This document shows, one piece after another, positions 32,471 to 64,000 of a DNA stretch of 64,000 nucleotides. The notes under the pieces were generated by a model. It ran no database searches and had not been told where the DNA came from. It saw only the letters and a program-made list of their open reading frames with translations. Source of the DNA: Prostheceraeus crozeri (taxonomy: Eukaryota > Platyhelminthes > Polycladida > Euryleptidae); assembly GCA_907163375.1 (NCBI GenBank), contig CAJQUW010014401.1, forward strand, positions 1 to 64,000. The letters run 5' to 3'. Position 1 is the stretch's first letter. The number at the start of each line of letters is the position of its first letter. Position numbers and translations under genes: made by a program.

Positions 32471-32500
32471 AATTCTTAACTTTAAATTTTTTTATTAAAA

Positions 32501-32986: not shown

Positions 32987-33056
32987 TAACCTCAGGACCT
33001 TTGGTCCATAAGGTAAAACATTTATTTTATCTTTTTAATTTTTTTTATCTTTTAAA

Positions 33057-33565: not shown

Positions 33566-34462
33566 CTGTCTGAGAGCAACGCTCGAACTAATAACTCTGA
33601 GAGCAACGTTCGAACCTACGCGTCCGAAATGACGAATGACCCAAGCCGCTATGCGTCTGAAATTCATAAAGAATACAGAAGGCCTAAATATTTATTGAAA
33701 GTAAAAGTATTTAATAAAGATGATATTTGGAGTGCTGATCTTATTCATATGCCGAATGAAAGGGACTACAAATACGCATTGACCGTTATAGATTTATATA
33801 CACGATATGCTTGGGTAAAGCCTTTAAAAAATAAAAGTGGTCTATCAGTTAAATATGCGTTTGAAGAAATCTTTAAAGAAAGTAATAGAAAGCCAAGGAA
33901 ATTGTTTGTTGATAAAGGGTCGGAATTTTATAACAGAAACGTTCAGCCACTATTTGAAACAGACGAAAGTCATCGCCAAGGCTCAGTTTATTCAACTGAA
34001 AACGCAGGAAAAACTGTAGTGATAGAAAGATTCAATCGGACGTTAAAAAATAAATTATTCAAGAAATTTACTGAGCAAAGAAATCAGAAATGGTTGAAGA
34101 TATTACCAGGAATTGTAGAAGAGTACAATAATAAAGTTCATTCTGGTATTGAAGAAACTCCAAAGAATGCTTCTGTCGACCCTGATTTGATAAGAAAAAA
34201 AATATTCGAGAATAATAATTTGAATGAGAGTAATCCGAATTTGCAGAAACTTAAGCCGAAATTTAAAATTGGAGATAGAGTTAGAATATTTAAATATAAG
34301 AATAAATTTGAAAAAGGCTTTGTTGGCTATTGGACTAAAGAAATATTTGAAATTTGTAAAATAAATCAAACTTATCCGTTTACTTATGAAATTAAAGATT
34401 TAGATAATGAGGATATCAGAGGCCGTTTTTATCAAAATGAATTACAACGAACTGAGCTTTAG
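33440..34462 (+). CDS. P1 integrase (retroviral/Ginger-like, DDE)
   Basis: 340 residues from the first ATG. The catalytic triad is visible: 'DIWSADLIHM' (D1, about residue 97), 'KLFVDKGSEFYN' (D2, about 157) and 'VVIERFNRTLKNKL' (E, about 195). The C-terminal 'FKIGDRVRIFKYKNKFEKGF' is the SH3-like domain; unlike P2 there is no chromodomain. The frame is open upstream to 33248 and includes the phospholipase domain, joined by a linker (33557-33665) made largely of mini-hairpins. The usual integrase N-terminal region is thus reduced or replaced. It generates the 6-bp target duplication seen around P1. Confidence 0.9.
   Translation: MIQELDSIQNPTFREKIERMFVKKALQAKILFGQGLNETTAKLSESNARTNNSESNVRTYASEMTNDPSRYASEIHKEYRRPKYLLKVKVFNKDDIWSADLIHMPNERDYKYALTVIDLYTRYAWVKPLKNKSGLSVKYAFEEIFKESNRKPRKLFVDKGSEFYNRNVQPLFETDESHRQGSVYSTENAGKTVVIERFNRTLKNKLFKKFTEQRNQKWLKILPGIVEEYNNKVHSGIEETPKNASVDPDLIRKKIFENNNLNESNPNLQKLKPKFKIGDRVRIFKYKNKFEKGFVGYWTKEIFEICKINQTYPFTYEIKDLDNEDIRGRFYQNELQRTEL
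33557..33617. repeat. mini-hairpins forming the phospholipase-integrase linker
   Basis: acagc-aaa-gctgt followed by two copies of gagagcaacg(c/t)tcgaac. They encode 'TTAKLSESNARTNNSESNVR', low-complexity sequence between the two domains. Confidence 0.65.
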
Positions 34463-34466
34463 CTTT

Positions 34467-34952
34467 TTAATTATCATTATTATTATTATTATTTTTATTA
34501 TTCAATTCTAACATAATATCAAGAAATGATACTCCTTTTTGTAATTTAAATAAAACATAAAGACATAATTGACCACAGTAAGTAGTTCCCGGTTTTTGAA
34601 TTTGAAATGTATTATAAGTTCCATTTTCAAGTAATTTTTTAACTTCGTTTGTAGGTGGAAGACCGTATGAGTCAAAATAGTAATTATCTCCATTTTTATT
34701 AGACATACCTGCTGACCAATGTACGCCTTTTTCATCTGACGTATGGAGATTGGTTACGAAATTTACAGTTATTGATGGAACTTTGTTCCGGGAACTGAAG
34801 GTTCCTGTTGGCTTATTTTTTAGGAATTGTAATTCGTCTCTCATTAGAACATGAAAATTCTTTATTCCTAATTCATTTGCGATTTTCTTTAGGTCGAAAT
34901 TTGTCGTAGTTTGCGTTCCATATAATTTAAAAAACTTATTTATGTTGCTCAT
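34467..34952 (-). CDS. P1 adenain-like cysteine protease (Ulp1/C5 type)
   Basis: 161 residues. Catalytic residues in family order: His78 in 'KGVHWSAGM', Asp94 in 'YYFDSYG', Cys126 in 'TTYCGQLCLYVL'. This protease matures capsid precursors in Polintons and adenoviruses, probably cutting at Gly-Gly sites in the small virion proteins. The C-terminus is a poly-N tail. A mini-hairpin pair (34777-34807) encodes 'PTGTFSSRNKV' near residue 48-58 without disrupting the frame. It converges on the integrase gene, with only 4 bp between stop codons. Confidence 0.9.
   Translation of the reverse strand: MSNINKFFKLYGTQTTTNFDLKKIANELGIKNFHVLMRDELQFLKNKPTGTFSSRNKVPSITVNFVTNLHTSDEKGVHWSAGMSNKNGDNYYFDSYGLPPTNEVKKLLENGTYNTFQIQKPGTTYCGQLCLYVLFKLQKGVSFLDIMLELNNKNNNNNNDN
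34777..34807. repeat. mini-hairpin pair inside the protease gene
   Basis: ggaac-ttt-gttcc then ggaac-tgaa-ggttcc. In frame, located in a loop before the catalytic His. Confidence 0.75.
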
Positions 34953-35005
34953 TTTATAATAAAAAAATTTCTTAAGGGACCCCTAGAAGACAGAAGGGAG
35001 GGGGT

Positions 35006-35076
35006 AGCAGAACTACGTTCATATGATATTGAAGGATATATTCTTGCTGTTTCTTCAACTTTTGTTTCTTCCACTT
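35006..35076 (-). repeat. inverted partial copy of the 19415 gene start
   Basis: Minus-strand translation reads 'EETARIYPSISYERSS', identical to residues 2-17 of the membrane protein at 19415, and is contiguous with the right terminal repeat. It shows that the terminal repeats once extended into this gene. Confidence 0.85.
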
Positions 35077-35532
35077 TTAAAGAAATATTTTTAGACACAT
35101 GATATATTTTAAAAACCTGAAAAACGTCTAAACTCATGAATTTGAAATTCTCAACTTTTATGATTTTCGGTGTCCTGGAACGGTCATGATTTTGGCGGGG
35201 GGTGAAAATCGAACCGAAGGTTCTAGGGCTTCGCCCGATTGTATTTCTCAAATTTTGAGATTTTGAAAAATTTGAAAATTGGGTATTTTTAAAAACGCCC
35301 AAATTTGTGAATTTAGGTCTTCATCACCTGAAAAAGGGTTCAAATTCATGAATTTATGTCGTTTTTAAAAAGTACCATTTTTGAAAAAATGGTACTTTTT
35401 GAATGGACTAAATCCATGTATTTAGGTCTTAAAAACCTGAAAAAGGGTCTAAATTCATGAATTTATGTCGTTTTTAAAGATACTATTTTTTTGAATTTTA
35501 TGGTGTCCTGGAACGGTCTTTTGCCCATTACT
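35077..35532 (-). repeat. P1 right terminal inverted repeat
   Basis: 456 bp inverted relative to 16997-17645, with the same hairpin at about 35215-35244. Homology to the left side continues inward: 35006-35076 matches the start of the membrane-protein gene at 19413-19472, not the sequence next to the left repeat. Confidence 0.95.
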
Positions 35533-35538
35533 TGCAAA
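35533..35538. repeat. P1 target-site duplication, right
   Basis: tgcaaa, identical to 16991-16996. Confidence 0.95.
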
Positions 35539-45990: not shown

Positions 45991-46197
45991 TTTGGAATAT
46001 ATATGATTTTATCACTTTCTGCTATTTTTCTACAGATCTTCAAAAAAGCTGCTAGTGTCCCTGATACGCCGTCCTATGCAAAATGTTGCGTAATAAGAAA
46101 AGAACAGCTGATTTATATTTTACGCTACTTTTGGTCAGCCTTGCATGCGTTGTTCATTATTACATGCAAGTAGTGAAAACTGTGCCCTACTTGCCAC

Positions 46198-46400
46198 GGA
46201 TAGGTACATGGATAGGTACATGTAAAGTTTAGTGTTATCAATAGGTACATGGATAGGTACATGTAAAGTTTAGTGTTATCAATAGGTACATGGATAGGTA
46301 CATGGATAGCTACATGGATAGGTACATGTATACTTTAGTTATCGATAGGCACACGGATAGGTACATGTATAATTCAGTGTTATCAATAGGAACTTGTATG
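46198..46400. repeat. 'aggtacatggat' tandem repeat
   Basis: A 58-bp unit with 'ataggtacatggataggtacatgtaaagtttagtgttatca' is repeated, then degrades into 12-bp 'ggtacatggata' repeats. It lies about 200-400 bp left of the first P2 gene. No inverted partner occurs on the right side of P2, so it is not a terminal repeat. Confidence 0.85.
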
Positions 46401-46617: not shown

Positions 46618-46626
46618 GCTATAAAT
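46618..46626 (+). promoter_or_regulatory. possible TATA box (CTATAAATA)
   Basis: Lies about 20-30 bp upstream of candidate start codons of the UBA-RING gene. That spacing is short for the first ATGs, so either initiation uses a later ATG or this box is not the functional one. Confidence 0.35.
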
Positions 46627-46639
46627 ATGAGATAGTTTT

Positions 46640-47152
46640 TTGATGACATACATAATGATGACTAGTATCCCAACGTCGTGGGTTGTCGCAAGAGACCTTG
46701 GATATTCGTTCAAAGCCATAGAAACTGTAACAAATCTCAGTGAAAATATCAACGCTGGTGATTTAGTTGATCGACTAATGGATCTAGATGAGCATGCTAT
46801 GAATCACAATTTGGATCGTAGGTGGATAGAGGATTTCTCCATGCTACACTGCAATGATAGTGAAATTAGGAGGATCAAATTGGAACGATATGGAAAGAAG
46901 GAGACATCTGACAGTGTTTTAATAAAAAGTTCTCCCAATAAAAGTGACTTCAGAAGGAAATTAGAACAAGAGACATTTAAATTATTATGTGAACGGAACT
47001 GCGTTAAATGTTTTAAACAGGAACGATCCCTTCTCTTTTTGCCATATTCTCATAGCGTTATGTGTTCTACATGTTATGTACCCTTTGAAACTTCATCTTG
47101 TCCCCTTTGCGATGAAGAAATATCTTCAACAGTCACTGTATATCGTGCATGA
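46640..47152 (+). CDS. P2 UBA-RING protein, IAP-type E3 ligase without BIR domains
   Basis: 170 residues. Residues about 18-55 ('VARDLGYSFKAIETV...NINAGDLVDRLMDLDE') resemble the UBA domain of IAP proteins. The C-terminal 55 residues form a C3HC4 RING of the IAP type: 'CVKCFKQERSLLFLPYSH', 'MCSTCYVPFE', 'CPLCDEEI', then the short hydrophobic tail 'SSTVTVYRA' that in IAP RINGs supports dimerisation. No BIR domain is present. IAP-family ligases restrain cell death; a virus-like element carrying one suggests control of host apoptosis or ubiquitin signalling, by inference. Several early Met codons make the start uncertain (46640, 46655 or 46658). Confidence 0.75.
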   Translation: MMTYIMMTSIPTSWVVARDLGYSFKAIETVTNLSENINAGDLVDRLMDLDEHAMNHNLDRRWIEDFSMLHCNDSEIRRIKLERYGKKETSDSVLIKSSPNKSDFRRKLEQETFKLLCERNCVKCFKQERSLLFLPYSHSVMCSTCYVPFETSSCPLCDEEISSTVTVYRA

Positions 47153-47216
47153 TGAGTCATCATGCAGGTCTGTGATTGGTCACTATTGTGTCTTTGTTTG
47201 ACTTTTCTATATAAGG
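47153..47216 (+). promoter_or_regulatory. P2 promoter: AP-1 site, CCAAT (inverted), TATATAAGG
   Basis: TGAGTCA at 47153-47159 overlaps the end of the UBA-RING gene; ATTGG at 47175-47179; TATATAAGG at 47208-47216, 47 bp before the ATG at 47263. The nonamer is identical to those at 48466-48474 and (minus) 61169-61161. It is a classical RNA polymerase II layout. Confidence 0.75.
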
Positions 47217-48448: not shown

Positions 48449-48474
48449 TGAGTCATATATAGGTGTATATAAGG
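48449..48474 (+). promoter_or_regulatory. P2 promoter: AP-1 site plus TATATAAGG
   Basis: TGAGTCA at 48449-48455 and TATATAAGG at 48466-48474, 85 bp before the ATG at 48559; a cgtcatca half site lies at 48431. Same nonamer and same site type as the 47153 promoter. Confidence 0.75.
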
Positions 48475-49434: not shown

Positions 49435-50070
49435 ATGACAGATTTTCGTCTATTCACTGATCGCACAATGTGTGTCGCTGGACCAAGTCAGTCCGGTAAA
49501 ACTACATTTGTAACTGAATTGCTACAATATAGAAATGAAATGTTTAACAAGGAAATTAAGAGAGTCAAATGGTATTATGGAATATTTCAACCACAACTAC
49601 ATTCTGCACTTCGCCAGAAAGGTTATGAGGTGAAGCAAGGGTTGCCATCAACTGAGGATATCAAAGCAGGTGACTTACTAGTATTAGATGATCTATTACG
49701 AGAAAGCAAATCTTCAAAGGATGTAACTGAAATGTTCATTCAAACTGCACATCATAGGGAAGCTTTTATTATCTACATCACCCAAAACATCTTCGATGGA
49801 GGGAAAGAGCAAAGAACTAGAAGTTTGAATACACATTATTTGACAATATTTAAAAATCCAAGAGATAGCAGTCAGATACATCATCTCAGTAGACAGATAT
49901 TACCTCAACAACCTAAAGTACTTTCAAAAATATATGAAGATGTAACAAAGAAACCACATGGTTATCTATTTATTGATCTAACCCAGGAATGTCCGGAACG
50001 ACTTCGATTTCGAACAAATATCATACCTAATTCCGCTGAACCAATGACAGTTTTCTGGGTTCACAGTTAG
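49435..50070 (+). CDS. P2 genome-packaging ATPase (FtsK/HerA, A32-like)
   Basis: 211 residues. Walker A 'GPSQSGKTT' at residues 16-24, Walker B 'LLVLDDLL' at 81-88, and the sensor strand 'EAFIIYITQNIF' near 105-116. Shorter than the P1 ATPase but with the same motif order. It should drive DNA into the capsid. Followed after 39 bp by the 50110 gene on the same strand. Confidence 0.93.
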   Translation: MTDFRLFTDRTMCVAGPSQSGKTTFVTELLQYRNEMFNKEIKRVKWYYGIFQPQLHSALRQKGYEVKQGLPSTEDIKAGDLLVLDDLLRESKSSKDVTEMFIQTAHHREAFIIYITQNIFDGGKEQRTRSLNTHYLTIFKNPRDSSQIHHLSRQILPQQPKVLSKIYEDVTKKPHGYLFIDLTQECPERLRFRTNIIPNSAEPMTVFWVHS

Positions 50071-50793: not shown

Positions 50794-51120
50794 ATGTCGT
50801 TACAAAAATTTTGCTGTTGTTTGAAATCTGCGCTCGAAGGTAAAGGAGAAGAGGGCATAGAGGTTGATATCAATTGTGTTAGCAGTTGCTGTGCGAGTAA
50901 TACGCGTGCAAATCAGAACAAAGACGATGAGTACAGCAGTGAAACTGAGAAAGATTTATTACGACTTAAATCATCCCGCAAGTTTCAGTCGTCCGGAGGT
51001 TCTAGCTCGTGGAGCAGGTGTGGGAATAGAGAAAGTCAAGAAGTGGTTGAGGAGTCAACCGACTTACATTCTTCACAAAAATGCGAGAAAGCGGTTTCCA
51101 ACAAGAAAATATGTTGTTAA
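50794..51120 (+). CDS. possible Cys-rich protein overlapping the integrase start
   Basis: 108 residues beginning 'MSLQKFCCCLKSALEGKGEE' with two CC clusters in the first 35 residues, then Ser/Glu-rich sequence overlapping the integrase N-terminus in another frame. Only the first ~45 codons lie outside the integrase. It may be a real small gene or chance; no homolog is recognised. Confidence 0.3.
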   Translation: MSLQKFCCCLKSALEGKGEEGIEVDINCVSSCCASNTRANQNKDDEYSSETEKDLLRLKSSRKFQSSGGSSSWSRCGNRESQEVVEESTDLHSSQKCEKAVSNKKICC

Positions 51121-52015
51121 CAATATAGATAGTCAATGGCAAGCGGACTTGGCTGACATGCAACAGATATCACAGTACAATGATGGCTATAAATGCATCT
51201 TAACCGTAATAGATATTTTATCTCGCTATGCTTGGGCACGTGCGCTGAAATCTAAACGAGGACCAGAAGTTGAAGCAGCTCTTCAGAGCATTTTCGATGA
51301 GGGGCGTGTTCCGCAAAGAATACAGACCGATCAAGGGAAGGAATTCGAAAACTCTCATGTTCGAAGTCTCCTTAAAAGTCATAATGTGGAATTATTTAGT
51401 GTCAAAAGTGCTTATAAAGCTGCCATGGTTGAGAGGTTCAATCGCACACTGAAGACAAAAATATGGCGCTATTTCACTGCAAAAAATACACATGTTTGGG
51501 TAGGTGAGCTGCAGAAATTTGTTAAGAATTACAATGATAGCTACCATCGAATCATTAAGATGAAACCAGTTGATGTTACCCCAGATAATGCGATGGATGT
51601 ATGGCTTCGATTGTATGATAAGAAAGCGAAAAACATTTCCAATGAAAAGAAAATTAATGTTGGTGATAGAGTTCGGATTTCAAAGGTTAAGTCTACATTT
51701 CAGAAGGGGTATCTACCTAATTGGACTGAAGAAGAGTTTTTTGTGGATGAAGTAAATACAAAATTTATACCCACCATGTATAAATTAATAGATTACCATG
51801 GCAATCCAATTGAAGGAAAATTTTACTCTTATGAATTGCAAGTAGTAGACAGAAGTGAAGAGGTGTATATGATTGATAAAATAATTAGGAGGAAAGGTCA
51901 TGGCAATCAAAGGAAATATCTAGTTAAATGGAAAGGATATCCTGATTCATTCAATAGCTGGATAACGCACCAGGATCTACAAAATGTGGAGATGGGAGAC
52001 ACTCGTAACTTTTAA
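50927..52015 (+). CDS. P2 integrase with C-terminal chromodomain
   Basis: About 362 residues from the ATG at 50927; an upstream in-frame extension to 50864 is possible. The N-terminus is helical ('KLRKIYYDLNHPASFSRPEV'). Catalytic triad: 'SQWQADLADM' (D1), 'RIQTDQGKEFEN' (D2), 'AAMVERFNRTLKTKI' (E). An SH3-like region 'INVGDRVRISKVKSTFQKGY' follows. The C-terminus is a chromodomain: 'VYMIDKIIRRKGHGNQ', 'YLVKWKGYPDSFNSWI', with the aromatic-cage positions (Y, W, W) present. Chromodomains read methylated histone tails, so insertion could be steered to marked chromatin. P1's integrase lacks this domain. Confidence 0.93.
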   Translation: MSTAVKLRKIYYDLNHPASFSRPEVLARGAGVGIEKVKKWLRSQPTYILHKNARKRFPTRKYVVNNIDSQWQADLADMQQISQYNDGYKCILTVIDILSRYAWARALKSKRGPEVEAALQSIFDEGRVPQRIQTDQGKEFENSHVRSLLKSHNVELFSVKSAYKAAMVERFNRTLKTKIWRYFTAKNTHVWVGELQKFVKNYNDSYHRIIKMKPVDVTPDNAMDVWLRLYDKKAKNISNEKKINVGDRVRISKVKSTFQKGYLPNWTEEEFFVDEVNTKFIPTMYKLIDYHGNPIEGKFYSYELQVVDRSEEVYMIDKIIRRKGHGNQRKYLVKWKGYPDSFNSWITHQDLQNVEMGDTRNF

Positions 52016-52055
52016 GCTAATATAGCATGTGACTTCTTCCATATATGACTTTAAC

Positions 52056-53633
52056 ATGTCTACTAACTTCAATATCATTCTTCCAAGCAATAGCAACCCC
52101 AAGATATTCCCAAGTAACAAACCATCTCTATACTCTGTTGAATTCGCTAATCCAATTACTCTGCATGGACCCCATGAAGTTGCTCTAACTGAAATTACTT
52201 ATTACAACGATATCAGTTTGCTAAAGAACAACTATTTTGAATTACATAAAGAAGTGCGAGAGAAGGATGATTGCTTTCGCATATTTCAAAATAGTCTACA
52301 TGGTACATGGGCTTTTCATCATCTAACTTTACATCCTTTTTCAACATCTTTACCATCTGTCCAAAACATGATTAAAATTCAAACGGCATTTGCAACGTCA
52401 ACTTTTAATTCTAAGGTTCCCACAATGAGCTTGCAAGATACAGAAAAGGAAATCGGTAGAATGTTTGAACGAATAAATGATCTCTTCAAGCTGACTTTGA
52501 ATAAATTCTACAAACCAGTCATAAAGGGGTCAACAAAATTGATGAAGGAAGGGAAGCATGTTCTTCTTGTATTAGGTAAGGATTTGAGTCATACTTTTGG
52601 GTATTCCAGAACAACTTTCTCATCAAGGTATTGGTACAATGGACGTGGGTGGAATTCGGAGAGGAAAGTCACTGATTTTAAATGTAGAATTGTGCCATTG
52701 TATGCATTACAAAAAAGGAGCATCCGAGTAAAAAATAAATTTGAGGTCATTAGAAGTGTTGAAGACTTTGCAAGAAAGTTTCAAGGATCAGTGCCAGAAA
52801 CGTTAATGACTTGTGAATATAAGAAAGAGAAAGTAACTTTATTTACTGTTGAAACGGAGGCAGAATTTATTGTTTTTACTAAAAAGACACCATTGGAAAA
52901 GTCTGAGTCCGCTGTTATTGAATTTGGATCTGAAATGATTGGGATGTTAAAGGGCCGTGAAAGCGCACCTTGGTTGACAGAATTAAATGATACATTCAAG
53001 GTTCAATTGTCCTCTTCTAAACTGAAAGCATCAACAAATGCTTCATGGGATATCCACGTATACAGCAAAGACATATCGGGTGATGAATTGTCTACTTCCA
53101 GTGAACTTGTAAAAAGAGTTAATTTGAACATTGAAAGCTTGAAAACGCCATCTGAATTGTGTACAAAGTTAAATGAGTTTGGTGTAGATTACCTTGATGC
53201 AGATGAATATCACTTTTCTTATGACCCACATAAGAAACGCATGATTCTAAAGGTAGGGAAGAACTCTCTTATCAAGCTGGATAGCGTGTTAACTACCACA
53301 TTGGGATTCTCAAAATCAACTATTTATGAAGGTACATCAATAGGCGATACAGCCCCATCACTAGAGCGTGATATAAGTAACTTATACGTCTATTGTAACA
53401 TTATTGAATATACAAGGGTTGGCGACATTGAGGCCCCACTTCTGCGCACATTTCCTCTCTCATCCGTAAGGAAGCAACTAATCAATCGAGAATTTTTTAA
53501 CATAATGTATCTACCAATCAGCCGAAATTTCATCAATAGAATTGACATATCAATTCATGATGATGCAGGAGAAGTAGTACCGTTCTGTGGTGGTGTTACT
53601 GTTTTGACCCTACATATTAGGTCACGAGAATAA
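52056..53633 (+). CDS. P2 penton / minor capsid protein with long internal insertion
   Basis: About 525 residues from ATG 52056 ('MSTNFNIILPSNSNPKIFP'). The N-terminal pattern 'PSLYSVEFANPITLHGPHEV' then 'ALTEITYYNDI' and the C-terminal 'VLTTTLGFSKSTIYEGTSIG', 'LYVYCNIIEYTRVGD', 'FFNIMYLPISRNFINRIDI' are those of the Polinton minor capsid protein. It is twice the length of the P1 homolog (262 aa): roughly residues 65-390 have no counterpart there, and include a beta-rich part ('LLVLGKDLSHTFGYSRTTFS') that itself resembles the GFSKST-type block, so a domain duplication is possible. It forms capsid vertices. Confidence 0.82.
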   Translation: MSTNFNIILPSNSNPKIFPSNKPSLYSVEFANPITLHGPHEVALTEITYYNDISLLKNNYFELHKEVREKDDCFRIFQNSLHGTWAFHHLTLHPFSTSLPSVQNMIKIQTAFATSTFNSKVPTMSLQDTEKEIGRMFERINDLFKLTLNKFYKPVIKGSTKLMKEGKHVLLVLGKDLSHTFGYSRTTFSSRYWYNGRGWNSERKVTDFKCRIVPLYALQKRSIRVKNKFEVIRSVEDFARKFQGSVPETLMTCEYKKEKVTLFTVETEAEFIVFTKKTPLEKSESAVIEFGSEMIGMLKGRESAPWLTELNDTFKVQLSSSKLKASTNASWDIHVYSKDISGDELSTSSELVKRVNLNIESLKTPSELCTKLNEFGVDYLDADEYHFSYDPHKKRMILKVGKNSLIKLDSVLTTTLGFSKSTIYEGTSIGDTAPSLERDISNLYVYCNIIEYTRVGDIEAPLLRTFPLSSVRKQLINREFFNIMYLPISRNFINRIDISIHDDAGEVVPFCGGVTVLTLHIRSRE

Positions 53634-53676: not shown

Positions 53677-54159
53677 ATGACAGGCATTTACAGTAGACCA
53701 TCATATCAGAGCGGTTATCCCGTGTTTGTTGGAGGTAGACGACAAGTTGGAGGAGGCATATTTGGTGCACTAAGACGTATGGTTCTTCCAACACTCAAAA
53801 AGTATGGCGTACCAATCATGAAGCGTGTTGGAAGCAGGGCTTTAGATTTTGGTGCAAATGTTGCAGCTGATGCGCTTCAAGGTGAGGATATCGGTGAATC
53901 TATGAAAATGCGCGCGCAGCAATCTGCCATAGACGCATTAGATGATTTAACAAAGACGAGACGTACAGTTCGGAAGAAGCGTAGGAAGTCAAGACAAGTT
54001 GGATCAGGCCGAGTTACTAAGCAAAGACGCAGGAAAAGTAAAAAGCCGACTAGAGCAGCACGTTCTAAATCTAGACGTCGAGTGAAAACAAGAAAGCGCA
54101 AACGAAATTCCACAGCTACTAGAAACAAGTCAAAACGAAGGAAGACAACATATTTGTAG
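53677..54159 (+). CDS. P2 basic core / DNA-condensing protein
   Basis: 160 residues in two parts. Residues 1-90: 'FVGGRRQVGGGIFGALRRMV', 'YGVPIMKRVGSRALDFGANV', with Gly-Gly sites that suit adenain cleavage and an amphipathic helix. Residues 95-160 are almost entirely Arg, Lys, Ser and Thr ('KKRRKSRQVG', 'KRKRNSTATRNKSKRRKTT'), as in adenovirus core proteins that condense DNA. It is encoded between penton and capsid genes, consistent with a virion component. Confidence 0.75.
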   Translation: MTGIYSRPSYQSGYPVFVGGRRQVGGGIFGALRRMVLPTLKKYGVPIMKRVGSRALDFGANVAADALQGEDIGESMKMRAQQSAIDALDDLTKTRRTVRKKRRKSRQVGSGRVTKQRRRKSKKPTRAARSKSRRRVKTRKRKRNSTATRNKSKRRKTTYL

Positions 54160-54169: not shown

Positions 54170-55453
54170 ATGCAGAGTATCAATTCGGCTTTGTGTTTCT
54201 TCGATTCTCCCCCTCATCAGACAGACATCATCTCCTCAACAATTGTAGACATAGTCCCCACAACAAATATCGATGGCAACCAGCAGCCTATTCAGTTTGA
54301 TATACCTGCCAATCCTCAAGATTATATTGACTGTCAATCCATTGATTTAGAGTTGTGTATACAAATTAAGAAGACTGATGGTACAAATATCGATTCATCC
54401 AAGGATAAAGTGGGATTAGCAAATCTTCCTATTGCCAGTCTGTTCTCAGATGTGTATCTAATATTGAAAGACAAACAGATTGAAGGAGGGGATCGAGCAT
54501 ATCCATATGTAGCATATATACATACAATGACTCAATTTCAAAAGCAAGCTAAACAGTCACACTTGCAAGTTTCTGGGTGGTATGATGATCAGCAAGGGAA
54601 ATTTGATGATGTCTCAAATATAGGGTTGAAAAGACGAATGGATTTAACAGCGGATTCAAAGGAATTATACTTGAAAGGACCCGTCTATCTTGATTTCCTT
54701 CGTCAATCTAGATATCTGCTATCACAGGTTAAAATGCAAATAAAATTTATTCGTGCAAATCCTGAGTTCGCGTTAATGGCTTTTGGAGCTACAAACTATC
54801 AAGTCAACATAAGTAATGCCGTGCTCAATGTAAGGCGAGTAACAATGAACCCGTCAGTCATCAACGAGCATGCGACAGGATTGAGGAAAAACAATGCAAT
54901 ATATCCAGTTAATCACAGTGCGTTGACAAACTTCACAATTGGTGCGGGATCATCCTCACATGCCTACCCAAATCTTTTTCCCACTGCAATGCCAAAGGCG
55001 GTGTATATCACATTTGTGGAAAATGAGGCATTCATTGGTGCTTTTGAAAAGAATCCATTCAATTTCCAACACTTTAATGTTAGCAAACTAGCACTCTATC
55101 AGGATGGGAAATTTGTATCTTGCAAAGCATATGAGCCTAATTTCAAAGATGGCAAATTCGCACGTGAATATGGTTCTATTTTCACCGCCCTCAACATGTT
55201 TAATACAGACGATTCAAATGGAATTACAATGGATATGTACAAGAATGGCTACTTCTTCATTATGTACAACCTCACAGCAGATGCAGATCTAGGTGGTGAA
55301 AGCGTAGGAGTTACAAAGCCTGGAAATCTACGACTGGAGGTATCATTTGAGTCACCTTTGAAGAAAACAATTACTTGTCTCATTTATCCTATCTATGATA
55401 GGAAAGTTGAGATAACAAGAATGAGAGACGTGACTGTCAGCTATCAGAGATGA
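54170..55453 (+). CDS. P2 major capsid protein (double jelly roll)
   Basis: 427 residues. Starts 'MQSINSALCFFDSPPHQTDI', followed by 'QPIQFDIPANPQDYIDCQSI', the first-strand block of the family. 'PIASLFSDVYLILKDKQIEG', 'RAYPYVAYIHTMTQF', 'LDFLRQSRYLLSQVKMQIKF' follow in order, then the second jelly roll ('NAVLNVRRVTMNPSVI...AIYPVNHSALTNFTIGAG'). The C-terminus 'LRLEVSFESPLKKTITCLIY' is typical. The stop overlaps the start of the protease gene by 4 bp (ATGA). Intact. Confidence 0.93.
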   Translation: MQSINSALCFFDSPPHQTDIISSTIVDIVPTTNIDGNQQPIQFDIPANPQDYIDCQSIDLELCIQIKKTDGTNIDSSKDKVGLANLPIASLFSDVYLILKDKQIEGGDRAYPYVAYIHTMTQFQKQAKQSHLQVSGWYDDQQGKFDDVSNIGLKRRMDLTADSKELYLKGPVYLDFLRQSRYLLSQVKMQIKFIRANPEFALMAFGATNYQVNISNAVLNVRRVTMNPSVINEHATGLRKNNAIYPVNHSALTNFTIGAGSSSHAYPNLFPTAMPKAVYITFVENEAFIGAFEKNPFNFQHFNVSKLALYQDGKFVSCKAYEPNFKDGKFAREYGSIFTALNMFNTDDSNGITMDMYKNGYFFIMYNLTADADLGGESVGVTKPGNLRLEVSFESPLKKTITCLIYPIYDRKVEITRMRDVTVSYQR

Positions 55454-55914
55454 GTAACTTAAGCAACATAGAAATCTTGAGGAAAATGAGGAAAGCTCAT
55501 CCCTACTCCAAGACAATATTTCTCAATGTCTTTTCTAGAGATAATTTACCTGATTCAATTCCTTTCTATCCTTGTTCGCTTATCATCAATACGGATACCA
55601 ACAATCTTCCCGGAAAACATTGGATTGCTGTATACATCAATCGTTATAAAGTTGCCGAATATTTTGACTCTCTTAATCAACCTCGTTTACATGATATCGC
55701 ATTATGGATGAACAGATTTTCCTGGACTGTTAGGAAAGTGACATCGTTCCCACTTCAAAGTAATACATCTCTAATGTGCGGTGGCTATGTACTCTATTTT
55801 GTCAACGAGAGACCATTGAAAAATAACTGTAAAAGTGCTTTAGAACTATTTTCAAAAAACTGTGATAAAAATGATGTAATTCTTACTAAATATGTTGAAA
55901 CAGTTTTGAAATAA
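55450..55914 (+). CDS. P2 adenain-like cysteine protease
   Basis: 154 residues. Catalytic residues: His57 in 'PGKHWIAVYI', Asp73 in 'AEYFDSLNQP', Gln103 and Cys110 in 'LQSNTSLMCGGYVLYF', the C5/adenain arrangement. Translationally coupled to the capsid gene. The stop codon lies inside an AATAAA (55911-55916), so stop and polyadenylation signal are merged. Likely processes the small virion proteins of P2. Confidence 0.93.
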   Translation: MSNLSNIEILRKMRKAHPYSKTIFLNVFSRDNLPDSIPFYPCSLIINTDTNNLPGKHWIAVYINRYKVAEYFDSLNQPRLHDIALWMNRFSWTVRKVTSFPLQSNTSLMCGGYVLYFVNERPLKNNCKSALELFSKNCDKNDVILTKYVETVLK

Positions 55915-56068: not shown

Positions 56069-56632
56069 TTAGGTTTTCATGAAACATTTTTTCAAATCAC
56101 ATATGATGGGAGGCACATCACTTATGTCTTTAATGCCGGTTATCACAATCTTTCCATTATGGAACACATGAACATGATATGGATGCCAGTTAGTCAATTG
56201 AGCTGTTGGAAATAACTCCACTTCATAAGTTAGATTATGTGATGATGTAACTTTACGGAAATCATAGTGATAGTGTAATTCACATAACACGGTCATTGTC
56301 TTCACTTTCCAATCAGATAATGAATCACCAAGTAAATGTTCCAAAGTTAAGTGTAAATATGAGAGATCACCCTCCATGACCCTTCCAATACATTGGATTG
56401 TTCCATTTGGAAAGAATAGGATAGTGAGAGATCTATCCTTCCTCTGAATTCTCCATGTTAACATTGAGGGTCTTCCAAGATGTAAGCTCGTTGTCGGCTT
56501 CAATTTGCGTTTTATCAGTAACCATTGTTTTCGGTTGGGTATATTCCTCTCGATCTCTTGTAGATTGAGTTTTGACTTTGCTTTTGTAGTTAACATCCGA
56601 TTTACAACTTCCAACCGTTTGATGTCCTCCAT
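56069..56632 (-). CDS. P2 TATA-binding-protein-like protein (complete two-repeat core)
   Basis: 187 residues, the length of a TBP core. Two internal repeats: 8-101 and 105-184. Repeat 1 has 'VVNRMLTT', 'KLNLQEIERN', 'PSMLTWRIQRKDRSLTILFF' and 'PNGTIQCIG'. Repeat 2 has 'WKVKTMTVLCEL', 'YEVELFP' (136-142) and 'VFHNGKIVITG' (156-166), matching 'YEPELFP' and 'IFVSGKVVLTG' of TBP. By eye three of the four DNA-kinking Phe positions are kept (F74, F141, F157) and the first repeat's DNA-contacting Asn is N11; the second Asn is Thr112. TBP binds TATA boxes in the minor groove and nucleates transcription complexes. P2 has identical TATATAAGG boxes. Its ATG overlaps the 3' part of the upstream gene. TBP-like genes are known from giant viruses; I know of none described in Polintons. 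Confidence 0.8.
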   Translation of the reverse strand: MEDIKRLEVVNRMLTTKAKSKLNLQEIERNIPNRKQWLLIKRKLKPTTSLHLGRPSMLTWRIQRKDRSLTILFFPNGTIQCIGRVMEGDLSYLHLTLEHLLGDSLSDWKVKTMTVLCELHYHYDFRKVTSSHNLTYEVELFPTAQLTNWHPYHVHVFHNGKIVITGIKDISDVPPIICDLKKCFMKT

Positions 56633-57014
56633 CTTTAATGAATGACGTTATCTGTGGTAGTATCTCCCTTGTAAAGGTTTCCCATGTAACGTCACTGAAA
56701 CGAAAAAATCGATATTCAACATCTTCACGTTTTGGTGAACAGACGTATAGTTTGACTGATGAATCACACTTTATCCATACCTTGTCATCGAGAGGAATCT
56801 TGATCCGAGTCTTATGGTTGTCAATGAGATCCGCAAAGTCTTTCAGTGAAGGCAATGAGTCAATACTAATGCAAACGCCACGATGTTTTCGATCACTATT
56901 TGCTATTGAATGACGAAATGCTATTCTTTTAGAATTTGTTATGTGAACGTTTTGAACGTCACTAAGTTTCCATGTTCTAATGTAATGAGGCATGTTCCGA
57001 AAGCTATGTTTCAA
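56433..57014 (-). CDS. P2 probable PC4-like (p15) ssDNA-binding/coactivator protein
   Basis: 193 residues. Residues 28-66 read 'SKRIAFRHSIANSDRKHRGV' then 'CISIDSLPSLKDFADLIDNH', echoing the 'R....KGIsLs.eqW..Lk..id' C-terminal half of the PC4 domain. Residues 79-126 repeat the plan ('VWIKCDSSVKLYVCSPKRED', 'FRFSDVTWETFTREILPQIT'), so two tandem PC4-like units are plausible. The last ~65 residues are hydrophilic and overlap the TBP-like gene by 200 bp in another frame. PC4 proteins bind single-stranded DNA and act at promoters. Assignment is by pattern; an unrelated fold is possible. Confidence 0.45.
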   Translation of the reverse strand: MKHSFRNMPHYIRTWKLSDVQNVHITNSKRIAFRHSIANSDRKHRGVCISIDSLPSLKDFADLIDNHKTRIKIPLDDKVWIKCDSSVKLYVCSPKREDVEYRFFRFSDVTWETFTREILPQITSFIKDGGHQTVGSCKSDVNYKSKVKTQSTRDREEYTQPKTMVTDKTQIEADNELTSWKTLNVNMENSEEG

Positions 57015-57057: not shown

Positions 57058-57225
57058 CAACATATCGGAATGATGTTGAGTACAAATTCTTCACATATTC
57101 ATTCACATTAGGACTACCTATTTATTAGTAATCATTTCTACATATCGGAAAGATGTAGAAATTTCAATTTTAGTAAGACTACTTATGTATTAGTAAGTGT
57201 TGCTACATGTCGGAAGATGCAGCAA
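57058..57225. repeat. threefold 'acat.tcggaa.gatg' repeat upstream of the TBP/PC4-like genes
   Basis: Copies at about 57060, 57139 and 57207, spaced ~70-79 bp, each an imperfect palindrome (tacat.tcggaa.gatgta). They lie between PolB's 3' end and the start of the PC4-like gene, i.e. in its upstream region. Operator-like, or 3' hairpins of PolB. Confidence 0.7.
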
Positions 57226-57272: not shown

Positions 57273-60200
57273 TTACTCTACATCACCTGTGACAGGAAGG
57301 CATCTCCTTCTCTTCGACGGTGGGGGAAGACCTAGGCTGTAGTGTCCATATGGTAATGATAAATTTTTATCCAGCCAACAGCGCTTATCCTCCCAAAGTG
57401 AAAGACCTCGCTTCCTAAATGATTTTGTGCTAACTATGTGATTTTTTGAATTTATAATTGTCATATCTTCAGTTGTATCATTCTCACTATAATAGACACT
57501 CCTATAGTCATCATGTTTCAATTTTTTAACTGCTGCTCTCTGAATTCCTTTTGCACGTTTGATGCTATGATTCGTAGAGTCTAGATATTTCATGGAATAC
57601 ATTTTCGGTTTTAGTAGGATCATTTCCTCAAGCAACTTTCCAGCACACTCATCCTTAAAACAACCTAATCTAGCTTTGTTTGTAGTTGAGTATAGTCGGT
57701 GATGACTGTCATAGTTTGAAGAGTCAAACTTTTCGCCGAAGTATAGAAGTATATCTTCTAGACGGACGGATGGTGATGTGTATAAACATAGGAAGAAACT
57801 GTCAATATCACCTCCACAAAGCCGCGTTCTATTTATCAGTGGACACCCTTTTAGATCATTGTAATATAATTGATACATTTCCAACTTACTATAGTCAAGT
57901 ACTGCTTGACCAACATATATTAATTTATTTAAAACTATTGAAGGTTTGTACATTTCCATACCAACCAGATCTTCATCAAATATTTTGTGTTGAACATAGA
58001 GAGGATGATTTGACAATTTCAGTAGTTGTTTCTCATTGTTGACTAGTTTAAATTTTTTCCTTCTCCTTACATTTTCCATTGTTTTACCATATAAAGAATT
58101 ATTTTTCAATTTGTAGAATGACTTTTCGAAGTCAGTGTTTGATTGAGCCCTCTTTTGAGAGTTCATATCAATGTATGTTTTTAACCAAGGCTTTTGTGTG
58201 AATTTTATGCCACTATGAATCTTCTTGATTCTCATGCCCATGGTCAAGTAAAATTTTAAAATTGAGTAGTGGACTACATAATTTTCCCTATCAAATTGAT
58301 GGAGCAGAAGTTTCTTGATAGAAGAAAAATGTGTATTTGGTCTTACTTTTTCATATAGATTTTTCATATAGTGTGAAAACATTTTCTTTTCAATCATCTG
58401 CATTTCTGGAGCTAATGGGAAATCGGCAGTGTCATCATGAATGGCTGCAGGATACTCTAAATCTAAATCAAAAATGTAGCCGATTTCACCATCATCATCT
58501 ATATTTTGAACATTTTCTTCATTTAAAAAATTATCTAATTCACTTTCATTCAACCATTTGAAATTTGAGTGGGGTAGATTTCTACTGAGTGAAGAACCAT
58601 AAAGGTTATTAACATCTGAGTAGGTCAAATGTCGACTTTCATGTGTATTATTTCCTAATTCTTCAATGCGTGCACGCGCTCGGTGAATGTTGGTGAAAGT
58701 CATACCCCCTCTAATTCCTCGTTCAAATAGATTGTACATATTTTCATCTTGTATGTAGTGTGGGGGATCATTGGAAGAGAAATTTAGTGCTGAGGTAAAG
58801 CTAAGATGTGGGAGACTGACAAAATGTACAGGGTCGACTTCATCCTCACGTTGACTCAATGCTCTAAACACTTCAAATATGTCTGCCAACAATAAAACAT
58901 CTAACTTCAGATATACCAGCATGTAATCACCAAATGTGCTACAATCAAATTCAATCCACGCCTTGCTAGCGTGTTCATATTCACTATCGGAACAGTGCTC
59001 ACGAGTAAGATCATTATAGAATTCAAATTGTGGTGGTAGACAGTCTTCCGTCAACGTGTTTAAGTTTTTGAAGTATGAATATGGAAACACTCCCTTCTGA
59101 TATAAAACATTATCACTTAATTGTGGAAATTCTACCCTTAATGTCTCTACATGCTCATACGTTTGCAAGCCCTTGGCTAATTCACTCAAGGATGCACTTA
59201 GAAATTGATATGAGTCCAAGAATTTTAGTTTAAAGTATACTGTCTTCCCTTTGTATTCATTTACAGGGACACTGGCGGATAAAGTTATATATTTTTCAGC
59301 AGTTGCTGCTACAACATCTAATTTCCAAGACTTCATTCTTCCAATCGCTTTATAGCAAACGATGTGGCTATCATAATTTTTAAAATTGTGGAAAAATATG
59401 GGGAGCTCCCGTCTGTTAAGTCTTAACCGGAGATTGCATTTCCTACATAATGTTTGCCTATATCGTCCGGTGATATGATCATGATCACGAACTTTTATGA
59501 CTTCATCGCTGAATTTCGATTTACATTTGTTGCAACATTCTGCATTCTCGTGGCGTGCTTTTTCATCCACTGACAGTGACATTGGCTGCCTAGTTGGTGC
59601 ACATTGGTTGTCATATAAGTCTTGGGCTACAGTTTCTAAGTGGTGCAAGAAACTAATAATGCAATTTTCTCCCTCAAAGAGGTAATACTTGTTTTCAAAT
59701 TTTGATTGAAGGGCATTATGCCAGACATGATAAGCTCCAATGGCCGCAGGTTTATGTATTTTATTATCAATGTAGCACTCTATATCTGCATAAATTACTA
59801 AAGGAGGACTTAGTTGATATTCCATGCTACTTGTTAGTACTTTTAGATCCGATGGCATTTTTTCTATTTGTGCTTTTCCTCGAATACAAAACTGGAAGTG
59901 TCGTTCTAGTGTTGTTTTATATGTGAATGACTGAGTGCATCTTTCGCAGAAGTATTTATGTCTTTTTAAAGTTCTCCTATACAATCTTGACAGCTTTGGA
60001 ATTCCACAATGGTGTGCTGCTCCATTGTTTAGAATTAGCAAAATATTAACCGTTTGCCTACCAGTAAAGTTACTATTATAACGAACACCTTTGAGTCCAT
60101 TTTCATAAAAGTGAATGTTAATTTTAATATCATTATTTTTCTCAAATTTTGGAATATCTTTGATTGATACTGGTGTGGAAATGCCTTCCATATTTAGCTT

Positions 60201-61130
60201 AGATGTCCACTCACTATATGATTTTACTTCATTCCTTGAATAAGGTACTTCATTATAATGCAATATTGATAAAACTGCATATAGGAAGCAATCATTTGCA
60301 TTTGAATTAACACTAATGACAGCTTCAGAATTTTTTAACTTCTTTGGTAGAGGAAATGATTGTCCACCTGACAGTATTGGACTTGTTATTACATTGAACT
60401 CTATATTTTGTACATCATCTATAATCCAATTGCTACCCTTTTTTGTGAAGGCTTCAATATGATTTATTAGACTATTTAGATGATCCTGAAACCAAGCATC
60501 ATAGTCATAAATATAGTTTGAGGATGATGAGGTAAAGTGTGCGAGAAAAGTTTCTTCTTCTTGAGGATTAGAACGGACATAACGAATTTGTGCAATCAGA
60601 CGACCGCGCAATTGATAGCTCCTTAGTAAGTCAGACACTAAATTCCCTAACATGGAACGCATGTTTTCTAAGAATGATGTTATGTCCACAGTAGGTGTTG
60701 TTGGCGTGATATCATACACACGTGCATGGCCATTGAGTGCGCTTTCGCTGAGACTAACAGTTCCATAGTTATTATGCATATTCATCTCACTATTTGTGTT
60801 ATGTACATTCATATGCTGTCGAAATCTACTTATAGAGTTATACGTTTTGCCACACCGAGAGCAGTATTGCATAAAGTTTTGTATGTTAGTTGAAGCGCTG
60901 GTTGTTGGCTTAGAAGTAGATCTATTTTGATTATTTGAATTTGACTCTGTTATGCTATCATTCGGTTTATTATTACATACAAGTTTATGCCTCTTAAGAT
61001 TATCCATCCTATTCGTCTTATATGGACACTTGCTACATTGATACGTTTTTCCTAACTTACAAAATTTTTCATGTCGTTGCAAATTGCCTATGAGAGTGAA
61101 CACTTTTCCACACTTGGTACAGACAACCAT
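57273..61130 (-). CDS. P2 protein-primed DNA polymerase B, intact
   Basis: 1285 residues in one frame. N-terminal C2H2 fingers at about 4-24, 31-52, 90-110 and 395-415. Residues 277-290 ('NSNANDCFLYAVLSIL') and 368-376 ('NNGAAHHCG') look like a cysteine-protease-type Cys/His pair. Exonuclease motifs: 'YADIECY' 447-453, 'HNFKNYDSH' 581-589, 'YLKLDVLLLAD' 740-750. Polymerase motifs: 'YSDVNNLYG' 837-845 (A), 'KLKNNSLYGKT' 1007-1017 (B), 'GDIDSFF' 1107-1113 (C, DID instead of DTD). All acidic residues needed for both activities are present. It replicates the element from a protein primer. Its promoter is at 61161-61209. Confidence 0.96.
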   Translation of the reverse strand: MVVCTKCGKVFTLIGNLQRHEKFCKLGKTYQCSKCPYKTNRMDNLKRHKLVCNNKPNDSITESNSNNQNRSTSKPTTSASTNIQNFMQYCSRCGKTYNSISRFRQHMNVHNTNSEMNMHNNYGTVSLSESALNGHARVYDITPTTPTVDITSFLENMRSMLGNLVSDLLRSYQLRGRLIAQIRYVRSNPQEEETFLAHFTSSSSNYIYDYDAWFQDHLNSLINHIEAFTKKGSNWIIDDVQNIEFNVITSPILSGGQSFPLPKKLKNSEAVISVNSNANDCFLYAVLSILHYNEVPYSRNEVKSYSEWTSKLNMEGISTPVSIKDIPKFEKNNDIKINIHFYENGLKGVRYNSNFTGRQTVNILLILNNGAAHHCGIPKLSRLYRRTLKRHKYFCERCTQSFTYKTTLERHFQFCIRGKAQIEKMPSDLKVLTSSMEYQLSPPLVIYADIECYIDNKIHKPAAIGAYHVWHNALQSKFENKYYLFEGENCIISFLHHLETVAQDLYDNQCAPTRQPMSLSVDEKARHENAECCNKCKSKFSDEVIKVRDHDHITGRYRQTLCRKCNLRLRLNRRELPIFFHNFKNYDSHIVCYKAIGRMKSWKLDVVAATAEKYITLSASVPVNEYKGKTVYFKLKFLDSYQFLSASLSELAKGLQTYEHVETLRVEFPQLSDNVLYQKGVFPYSYFKNLNTLTEDCLPPQFEFYNDLTREHCSDSEYEHASKAWIEFDCSTFGDYMLVYLKLDVLLLADIFEVFRALSQREDEVDPVHFVSLPHLSFTSALNFSSNDPPHYIQDENMYNLFERGIRGGMTFTNIHRARARIEELGNNTHESRHLTYSDVNNLYGSSLSRNLPHSNFKWLNESELDNFLNEENVQNIDDDGEIGYIFDLDLEYPAAIHDDTADFPLAPEMQMIEKKMFSHYMKNLYEKVRPNTHFSSIKKLLLHQFDRENYVVHYSILKFYLTMGMRIKKIHSGIKFTQKPWLKTYIDMNSQKRAQSNTDFEKSFYKLKNNSLYGKTMENVRRRKKFKLVNNEKQLLKLSNHPLYVQHKIFDEDLVGMEMYKPSIVLNKLIYVGQAVLDYSKLEMYQLYYNDLKGCPLINRTRLCGGDIDSFFLCLYTSPSVRLEDILLYFGEKFDSSNYDSHHRLYSTTNKARLGCFKDECAGKLLEEMILLKPKMYSMKYLDSTNHSIKRAKGIQRAAVKKLKHDDYRSVYYSENDTTEDMTIINSKNHIVSTKSFRKRGLSLWEDKRCWLDKNLSLPYGHYSLGLPPPSKRRRCLPVTGDVE

Positions 61131-61160: not shown

Positions 61161-61209
61161 CCTTATATACATCTACCATCTAATGACGTCAGCGTCATCA
61201 CCAGCCAAT
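61161..61209 (-). promoter_or_regulatory. PolB promoter: CCAAT (inverted), CRE, TATATAAGG
   Basis: Read on the minus strand: ATTGG (61209-61205), TGACGTCA (61191-61184) and TATATAAGG (61169-61161), 31 bp before the ATG at 61130. The box is identical to those at 47208 and 48466, and CRE and AP-1 sites are bound by related bZIP factors. Confidence 0.8.
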
Positions 61210-61289: not shown

Positions 61290-63433
61290 TTAAAGTTTGA
61301 CACACTTTACAATACCGCTGTGATTCAGCTTCAAATGACTGCATCCTTTTGTGCAGACGCTGAAATCGTTCATGTGAGTCAGTCTCACTTTTCTAATTAC
61401 ATTGTTCATGCAGTCAATGTGCATTAAAGTTTCCTTTTCATTAATACGACTGTTTGAAACCTGGGAGGCCAACAGGAGATTGGATTGTGTTAGGTTCCTC
61501 ACAGATTCAATCAAGCCTCTGTTCTCCTCCTTCATTTTCTTCTCCCGCTCCTCTGCCTGCTGTAGGCGCTCCTGGCAGAGACGCAACTTGTTCTGTACAT
61601 CCTCTTCTGTCGAGGTTGCGTCCAAGTCGACGTTATAATCCCGCACTGGGAGAGGAGCCGTCACATCCGACGTTGGTAGAGCTGCAACTGGGGGAGGTGT
61701 TGTGGGAAGTAGTACCGGGGAGGAAGGAGCTGCACCTGGTTTCGGTAATGGGTTCGGAGGAGATAGCGACAAGGGAAGACGTGCAGGGGATGATGGAGCC
61801 AAGCAGATCATTGGGGACGGCGGCAGGCGGACACTCCAGCTCGGGGATGCCCGGATGTTGCTGAAGGAGACCTCCTGTGATGCATGCATCACGGAGTCCT
61901 GCAAACGAAAAGAAACAATTGTTTATGAACTATTTGCAATTGTTAACATTTATCAAAATTAAAATTAACACTATGTAAATTCAATTACATAAATTAAAAT
62001 TAACTTGTTGACATTTATTAACTCCAAATGTGAATTTCACATACCTTCAGCTCGATTGTCCCTCGATTTGATCCACCTTCGTCCTCCGAAAGAACCATCG
62101 AATCATTCTAGAAGATAAATTGATCTATTACAGATTAATAAATTTTTACTCAAGTGGGTTTCTAAATTACAATGGAAAAGTTCTCTGCTGATGCAGTCAT
62201 CTAAGCATTAAACTTACATTTGCAACCGAATTATCGTCATCGGATGAGGATGTTGGAGACGACGTGGTGGAGACGTCGTCATCAGATGACGAGGAATCGC
62301 CCGATGATTCATGGATGGAGTAGGGCCTCTCCTCGTTATCCTCTATAGATGTGGTGGTCGCCGGCGTAGACAGAAAGCTCCGCTGATGTCTTTTAAGGGA
62401 CAAAGATCGTACAGCCTGCAGCGAAAATGTGATAATGTTTTTATAACTAGATAGATATTAATGAGAATTAATATAGACATAGACTATATACATGTAAAGT
62501 TTTTTTCCAGGTATTGTTGTCTGATATTGAATCGTAGACCATGAAAATCACACTTACGGGACTTGAAATGGTTTTCTTTTCCGGTGAATTCAACCGAGGT
62601 ATTGCAGGATACCTTTGGACACTTGGAAACAGCTGAAAATAAAAATTCATGTTCAATTTCACATTAAGAAGTAACAAGCAAATTAATTTCTTACCTTTCG
62701 CAAGTTTTCCACCGCATTATTGTCTTCGAAACTGACTTTCAGCGGTCGAGGCACCTCACACTGAAATATTTATGAAATATTGATTTAGTTTATGCACACG
62801 ATTACTAACCTGAGTAAATAGAATCTCACATCTTGAACGACCAGTTTCTTCTGCACCAACACCTTGGCTTTCTTCGGTGGGGGCATCACCATGTCCTGAA
62901 ATGTGTTAACAACAAATTTATTTTAATCTAAAGGAAGCAGTACTTTTTGTCAACTGTGAGTCAGTTGTCCGTTCAAGTTAGCATTTAGAATTGACTGCAC
63001 TTACCTCAAAATCACTCAAAGTCTCATCAATAAATTCTCGAGACTTGGGGACTTTCTTAGGTGCTCGGGACTTGGGGGCTTTCTTTGCCTCAGGCTCGTC
63101 CACCTGTGAGAGCACGCCTTCAGTCGGCCTTTCCTTATTAAAAAGCCTCTCCAATTTCCTTTTCTCTGACTTGGAGGTAAGGTTGATGCCTTTCCGGCCA
63201 TTCTGTTGGGCACAGGGCGTGTGTTTGACAATGAAGGCTTTTGCTGAGTCGCTGTTGACCTTGTCGTTGCTCCTCTCATATGTCTTGCAGGTTAAGCAAT
63301 AGAGGTACGTGAAATCCTCTTTGAATATGCAGTCTTTGTGGCCACTCTTGTTGCCATGACAAACAGGCAGTCGGCATGTTTCACAGTAGTGAAAGATCAG
63401 CCGTTGTCGCGCAATACTTTCTTGTCGGACCAT
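61290..63433 (-). CDS. seven-exon gene, unknown nuclear protein
   Basis: Exons (minus): 63433-63005, 62895-62830, 62760-62695, 62632-62558, 62415-62218, 62107-62045, 61898-61290. All junctions are GT-AG and every exon ends in phase 0, giving a ~500-residue protein. Exon 1 has Cys/His-rich metal-binding-like sequence ('HYCETCRLPVCHGNKSGHKD', 'YLYCLTCKTY'). Exon 2 has 'MPPPKKAKVL', a classical nuclear-localisation-like stretch. Exon 5 is Ser/Asp-rich ('SSSDDDVSTTSSP'). The last exon is Pro-rich and then a coiled coil ('ERLQQAEEREKKMKEENRGL'). Introns are 62-146 bp. No family is recognised. Its stop is only 160 bp from the PolB ATG; it could be host sequence flanking P2 or cargo of an element extending further right. 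Confidence 0.75.
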
Positions 63434-64000
63434 TTCTATATAGGAAAAAAATTGATTATAATTTAATCTCTTGTTAAACGAGAACGCATTTATATACCAT
63501 CAACAAAGGTCTATTAAGTGCTACTTTCATATTGGAGAAATCTGAGAAAGAAATAAAATTTGAAGTTGAAATTGAAACCGAAAGTCGAAAATTAGATATT
63601 TATTCGAAAAGGGTTAGCTCATAAGAAGAGTTGAAATTTGGAAACAGCTGATTTACTATTATTTAATTTCGAAATTAATATAATAGAATGAAAGTGAAAT
63701 TTCGAAATTTCAACCAATCCTCAATTTGTTTAATTAAACAAGCTTGAATTTCATACATCTGTTAGCAGATGACAGACTGAATATTTAAAATGGATGAAGG
63801 CTTTATTTAGGTATCTTTTTATTTATTTACAAACTGTGCAAATCTTGTTGATTCAAATACACTTACATTTAAACTGATATATTATGTCTCTCGCTCAGTG
63901 ACTTAATATAGGATGAAAAATTAAAAAAAAACATGGTTAATAATATAACAAAGTGTTCCTATCCTAAAAACCCAAGCTTCTATATTTAAAGCTATTTGGT
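63434..64000. other. gene-free stretch, upstream of the spliced gene
   Basis: AT-rich, with 'gaaatttcgaaatttc'-type short palindromes near 63660-63710. No gene, terminal repeat or promoter motif is recognised. Confidence 0.4.

Follow-up and report, generated by a model that had tools for sequence, protein, structure and literature searches.

A TATA-binding-protein-like gene inside a Polinton of the flatworm Prostheceraeus crozeri

In a 64,000-nt stretch of contig CAJQUW010014401.1 from Prostheceraeus crozeri (assembly GCA_907163375.1; hereafter, the window), a gene with two TATA-binding protein (TBP) lobes lies at 56069..56632 on the minus strand, with its ATG at 56632 and its stop codon ending at 56069; the plus strand of the same interval holds many stops, and the real frame is the minus-strand one. 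An earlier note, made from the letters alone, had described this frame as 187 residues with two TBP-type repeats, each ending in F-x-x-G-x5-G, and with YEVELFP in the second, and all of this is present: the repeats end in F74-G77-G83 and F157-G160-G166, and YEVELFP occupies residues 136-142. Directly upstream, and overlapping the gene by 200 nt, is a 193-aa frame (56433..57014, minus strand; TTG start, first ATG at 56993) that matches no Pfam family and that remains open, in a different frame, across the 200 nt at the start of that gene (56433-56632).

The neighbouring genes are those of a Polinton. To the left, all on the plus strand, lie in order a RING-finger protein (46640..47152; zf-C3HC4_3, 9.2e-9), a weakly matched packaging ATPase (49435..50070; AAA_14 6.2e-5 and Pox_A32 0.057, both below cut-off), an integrase with a chromodomain (50864..52015; rve 9.2e-13, Chromo 1.2e-9), what we take to be a penton-like protein (52029..53633; first in-frame ATG 52056), a very basic protein of 160 aa (53677..54159), which we assume to be a possible core protein, a presumed capsid protein (54170..55453), with a weak profile match behind the name, and a protease-like protein of the Ulp1 type (55450..55914; a weak Peptidase_C48 match at E=0.033, below cut-off). 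To the right, on the minus strand, is a DNA polymerase B of 1285 aa (57273..61130) with N-terminal C2H2 zinc fingers (zf-C2H2, 1.4e-8) and an endonuclease-VII-like domain (Endonuclease_7, 4.5e-6). Several of these names are tentative, the matches behind them being weak or indirect.

Two very different Polintons lie close together in the window. The second, Polinton-like and AT-rich, spans 16996-35533 and has 283-nt terminal inverted repeats that are 99% alike. It lacks a TBP and encodes a capsid protein of the double-jelly-roll type (PF21738, 1.1e-18), an integrase (rve), an ATPase that resembles Pox_A32 at a score just under the cut-off, and a polymerase broken up into several frames. The 1285-aa protein, which has no direct Pfam polymerase match, matches two of these polymerase pieces by BLASTP (9e-35 and 2e-32), one of which matches DNA_pol_B_2. 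By the same method the penton-like protein matches 21139-21927 of the second element (2e-17) and the ATPase matches its ATPase (7e-4), while the family of our capsid protein, itself without a Pfam match, reaches an hhalign probability of 81% with the double-jelly-roll protein. Of the genes expected in a Polinton or Maverick, the TBP-bearing element has the rve-type integrase and, by way of the second element's pieces, the family B polymerase; its penton-like, capsid, ATPase and protease genes are candidates, the Pfam matches of the last two being below cut-off.

No terminal inverted repeats of the TBP-bearing element were recognised among the 25 pairs listed of 54 inverted pairs in 38000-64000, and its right end may lie beyond base 64000. 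With element genes on both sides of it, the TBP gene is inside the element wherever the ends lie; the location given in the earlier note agrees with these flanking genes, and co-occurrence with a capsid gene on other contigs (below) adds indirect support. Imperfect tandem repeats around GGTACATGGATA occupy 46193-46399, just left of the first element gene and possibly near the element's left end. On the minus strand at 61290-63433, frames resemble the exons of a spliced gene, with an acceptor-like TTGCAG at 61904, found by eye, and a TATATAAA box before a 151-aa frame.

The TBP resemblance of the 187-aa frame is far beyond chance. PF00352 (TBP) is the sole Pfam family above cut-off, matched in two stretches at E=9.7e-13 and 48.2 bits against a curated cut-off of 22.9 bits. 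When compared with solved structures, the single sequence finds TBPs at E of about 4e-4, and a profile built from 38 sequences (A2) finds the TBP of M. jannaschii at 2e-23, the match covering positions 1-174 of the 176 in the profile. The predicted structure is a high-confidence TBP model with a two-lobe saddle across the whole chain, a bare TBP core without an N-terminal extension. Profile searches and predicted fold thus agree with the identity proposed earlier and support homology to TBP; the protein would presumably recognise TATA DNA. The gene is the only TBP found in six frames of the window. A PHROGs search with the protein gave no match, nor did a search of Rfam.

A search with the single sequence returned 15 relatives among 36 candidates, and one with an alignment (A1) returned 191 of 2079 candidates at an E of no more than 0.01. 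Of the 38 members of A2, 37 match PF00352. The capsid protein, searched likewise, has 150 homologues. Counts per relative given below are from the best 120 of the 191 TBP relatives, and the capsid comparison is from the best 120 of the 150 homologues. We paired the two sets by exact equality, in bases, of the longest contig together with at least one common source. Contigs of at least 5 kb carry 36 of the 120 TBP relatives listed and 66 of the capsid homologues listed, and at least 7 of these 36 share exact contig size and source with a capsid homologue among the matches listed, the remaining 29 being without a partner among them; when sizes were shifted by 1-60 bases either way as a chance control, the mean was 0.14 pairs and the maximum 2. 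For the pairs at 15093, 10033 and 9861 bases, identity to the window proteins runs in parallel, at 71, 64 and 48% for TBP and 71, 65 and 54% for the capsid. An eighth pair of equal size (3433 bases) was counted as chance, since its sources differ. These coincidences are indirect evidence of a TBP gene that moves, at least partly, together with this type of capsid. Neither IMG/VR (single sequence, A1 or A2 as query) nor the GTDB contigs yielded a TBP-like homologue, and so the linkage in relatives rests on equal contig sizes; in IMG/VR the capsid and the ATPase, as single queries, had no match either. A separate observation concerns P0121, a protein 99% identical to the element's capsid protein, which two public sources have on a contig of 11,374 bases; it belongs either to a near-copy or to this very element, sampled in a different data set.

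Residues were mapped onto yeast TBP through the 38 rows of A2 and then counted in the best 120 of the 191 relatives, which include 37 of those 38. Three of the four DNA-kinking Phe are kept, as had been claimed: F74, F141 and F157 align with yeast F116, F190 and F207, of which F190 and F207 are kept in 120/120 relatives listed and F116 in 112/112 aligned. The fourth, F99, is Pro in the window protein and in 91 of the 92 aligned relatives listed (Leu in the other). V122 is replaced by Gln in all 112 aligned relatives listed and T124 by Leu, Val, Ile, Phe or Met in the same number (Ile in the window protein), while N69, the central Asn of lobe 1, is kept in 76/76. Position N159 is Asn in 88, Thr in 19 and Ser in 9 of 116 aligned relatives listed; in the window protein both N159 and V161 are Thr, and of the basic residues of yeast TBP, K97, K110, K120, R196 and K201 are lost and R98, R105 and K211 retained, so that its contact with DNA may be weaker or different. 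The residue at E186 is Glu in 117/120 relatives listed and that at E188 is Glu in 114/120 and Asp in 6/120, the window protein reading E-V-E. From the alignment, we take these two acidic residues, two positions apart, to be the TFIIB contacts labelled C.L3.2 and C.L3.4 in a survey of viral TBPs, and E184 and E188 in the work on ORF24 of KSHV. Compared with a canonical cellular TBP, there are thus three kinking Phe instead of four, with the TFIIB-contact acidic residues in place; the earlier note mentions neither of the two, the Pro in place of the fourth Phe or the retained contacts. A Pfam scan of the 16 ORF proteins of the element region, the TBP included and short alternative frames and spliced genes lying outside it, found no TFIIB family, and a TFIIB-like gene may be hidden in the spliced right-end genes at 61290-63433. 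Judged from its sequences, the Polinton TBP family has its own pattern: the C-lobe signature and the TFIIB contacts are retained, the former largely, the N-lobe is altered, and the scanned ORFs include no TFIIB family.

Candidate promoters for such a protein are found in the element itself. The box TATATAAG occurs three times, always in sense and upstream of an ORF: at 47208..47215 (plus), 55 nt before a 207-aa ORF (47263); at 48466..48473 (plus), 93 nt before a 244-aa ORF (48559); and at 61162..61169 (minus), 39 nt before the polymerase. A TATATAAA box lies at 63489..63496 (minus), 63 nt before the 151-aa ORF (63433), and a TATAAATA box at 46620..46627 (plus), just 20 nt before the RING ORF as listed. 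With ORF starts as listed, TATATAA[A/G] or TATAAATA is present within 120 nt upstream of 5 of 15 element ORFs, against a mean of 0.22 in 2000 simulations drawn at the composition of the whole element and not of its intergenic DNA, none of which reached at least five. The shorter TATATAA has five sites, four of them noncoding, and all four fall in the sense 100-nt upstream windows, which make up 12.9% of noncoding strand positions (probability under random placement, 2.8e-4); at least four of 15 random 100-nt windows contained it in 0/5000 placements, the windows being drawn from coding and noncoding DNA alike. For the 100-nt and 7-mer tests the starts of the RING, penton and 193-aa frames were set at the first ATG, with 56994 used for the last, a base away from its ATG at 56993. 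The 204-aa frame at 61904, which resembles an inner exon, was excluded from all upstream counts. The TBP gene, the 193-aa frame and the ORFs for capsid, penton, ATPase, integrase and protease have no canonical TATA box within 120 nt upstream. TATA-type promoters therefore exist in the element and may be served by its own TBP or by that of the host; the TATATAAG boxes could simply serve host TBP.

Two further motifs were seen in upstream DNA. GCTAATA occurs four times in the element (47254, 52016 and 54161 on the plus strand, 57056 on the minus), always in noncoding DNA, in sense and with a start codon 9-63 nt downstream (that of the 207-aa ORF, the penton, the capsid and the 193-aa frame, with the first ATG taken for the penton and the 193-aa frame). 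It was considered as a promoter element of capsid genes and set aside as a lead only: it is the top 7-mer, but an equal best value arose in 46/2000 random placements, and its distance to the start codon varies. The stretch 57058-57222 (minus), a short way ahead of the 193-aa frame and the TBP gene, contains three short palindrome-like sites that share the core TTCCGAYATGT, a core with no other occurrence on either strand of 45-64 kb. In two of them the 6-nt arms pair perfectly and, from one copy to the other, change in step on both sides; the third has one mismatch. They are possibly an operator or regulatory site.

With this gene the element may be able to turn on its own genes by way of the host transcription machinery, which would be an unusual mode. 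As our main reading, with a probability of roughly 0.6, we propose that the Polinton-borne TBP places its two-lobe saddle in the DNA minor groove at the element's promoter sites and drives them through recruitment of TFIIB and RNA polymerase II. The largely intact C-lobe would kink the DNA and dock host TFIIB, as the two-residue signature together with the fold suggests, and the docked TFIIB would bring in host RNA polymerase II. The N-lobe of TBP reads the 3' half of the TATA box, and its alteration here would loosen or change recognition of that half and may let the protein escape host factors that act on the N-lobe of TBP. The gene lies near the polymerase gene and shares its orientation, opposite to that of the capsid genes, which hints at early expression, and the protein is probably made early and then used on the element's own promoters. 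By analogy with late transcription in herpesviruses, a role on the TATA-less capsid promoters is possible as well.

The same residues bear on other functions. It is doubtful that the protein is a factor of DNA architecture in replication, packaging or integration, bending the termini or guiding the integrase to host promoters through TFIIB, for the conserved TFIIB-contact signature indicates transcription and the integrase already has a chromodomain. Kept TFIIB contacts and an altered N-lobe would suit a decoy that competes with host TBP, tying up TFIIB or host TATA boxes and dampening host transcription; this we consider unlikely, as the relatives listed retain three kinking Phe as well as the central Asn in lobe 1, residues that a pure decoy could do without, and broad shut-off would presumably gain an integrated element little. 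Service to RNA polymerase III or I through Brf- or TAF1B-like paralogues of TFIIB is quite improbable: TBP does work with these paralogues, and according to PMC7221094 both Brf1 and Brf2 have the conserved Arg that faces one of the acidic residues, but the element's ORFs are protein-coding and several have TATA-type boxes before them.

As to origin, the window protein is identical to yeast TBP at 34/167 positions (20%) and to M. jannaschii TBP at 35/168, while yeast and M. jannaschii TBP share 65/177 (37%). In a tree of 54 rows (the window protein, 49 relatives and a thin sample of four cellular TBPs, with host TBP and TRFs outside the set and the bootstrap not fully settled), the cellular TBPs split from the family at 100/100 on a branch of 3.67. 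These values uphold the earlier view that the gene is not a recent host copy, and a recently caught host TBP or TBP-related gene, or a relic, which the shared fold alone would favour, is very unlikely beside such divergence, the open frame, the conserved family signature and the link to capsid genes elsewhere.

Like the cellular TBPs of archaea and eukaryotes (PF00352), the Polinton TBP has a full-length two-lobe saddle, three of the four Phe, the TFIIB acidic pair and the first central Asn; unlike them, it is a bare core at about 20% identity, with Pro for F99, Gln for V122, and Leu or another of the residues given above for T124. With giant-virus TBP-like proteins (e.g. those of Heterosigma akashiwo virus 01 and Terrestrivirus in the viral structure library BFVD) it has in common that they are viral genes with a TBP fold, and identities are 6-21% among the 50 BFVD matches listed. 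In the portions of PMC7221094 available, the TFIIB contacts are variable among viral TBPs (about 40% conserved at C.L3.2), a viral TFIIB is present in almost all TBP-bearing viruses but was not found in poxviruses, and use of host TFIIB by viral TBPs is inferred to be unlikely; excerpts of two algal-virus papers (PMC12085832, PMC4602308) list TBP together with TFIIB genes. Unlike the giant viruses, the Polinton TBP family keeps the TFIIB contacts with no TFIIB among the 16 scanned ORF proteins of the element. ORF24 of KSHV is, as described in the accessible text of PMC12529657, a viral TBP-like factor that works with host RNA polymerase II, needs all four Phe, lacks the TFIIB-contact acidic residues, has extra domains and acts with five other viral activators; compared by this description only, its residue pattern is the opposite of that of the bare-core Polinton protein. 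A TBP is also common in mirusviruses (59% of genomes, in the available text of PMC10132985), a group of eukaryotic DNA viruses of another phylum, likened here by description.

The earlier note had further claimed that a TBP would be new for Polintons or adintoviruses. The TBPs named in the available portions of PMC10675990, PMC10132985, PMC11464507, PMC12085832 and PMC4602308 belong to mirusviruses or giant viruses, and in PMC12220804 and PMC11640650 the matching word is an author name or a primer. Searches for TBP and TATA within four papers about Polintons, Mavericks and related viruses (PMC11071308, PMC10120064, PMC8097293, PMC4028283) gave nothing. With no Polinton TBP found in the open-licence literature on Polintons and adintoviruses, novelty is supported so far, within that literature only. 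BFVD also holds unnamed proteins with a TBP-like fold (e.g. A0A5P9U4S6, 189 aa, TM 0.73), among which a Polinton or adintovirus TBP may have been deposited earlier.

Taken further, and at somewhat less than even odds, these findings would describe an old Polinton lineage in which a separate class of TBP is a regular gene. Such a TBP would be changed chiefly in a single lobe, where Pro replaces a kinking Phe and Gln a groove Val, and would dock host TFIIB directly. If so, it would be a third viral solution beside that of the giant viruses, with their own TBP and their own TFIIB, and that of the herpesviruses, with a TBP mimic lacking the TFIIB contacts, and Polintons would gain element-specific control of promoters, for example an early-to-late switch. 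To our knowledge, the way in which Polintons initiate the transcription of their genes is unstudied, and a dedicated TBP would make that start testable, with one small protein, defined candidate promoters and one candidate host partner.
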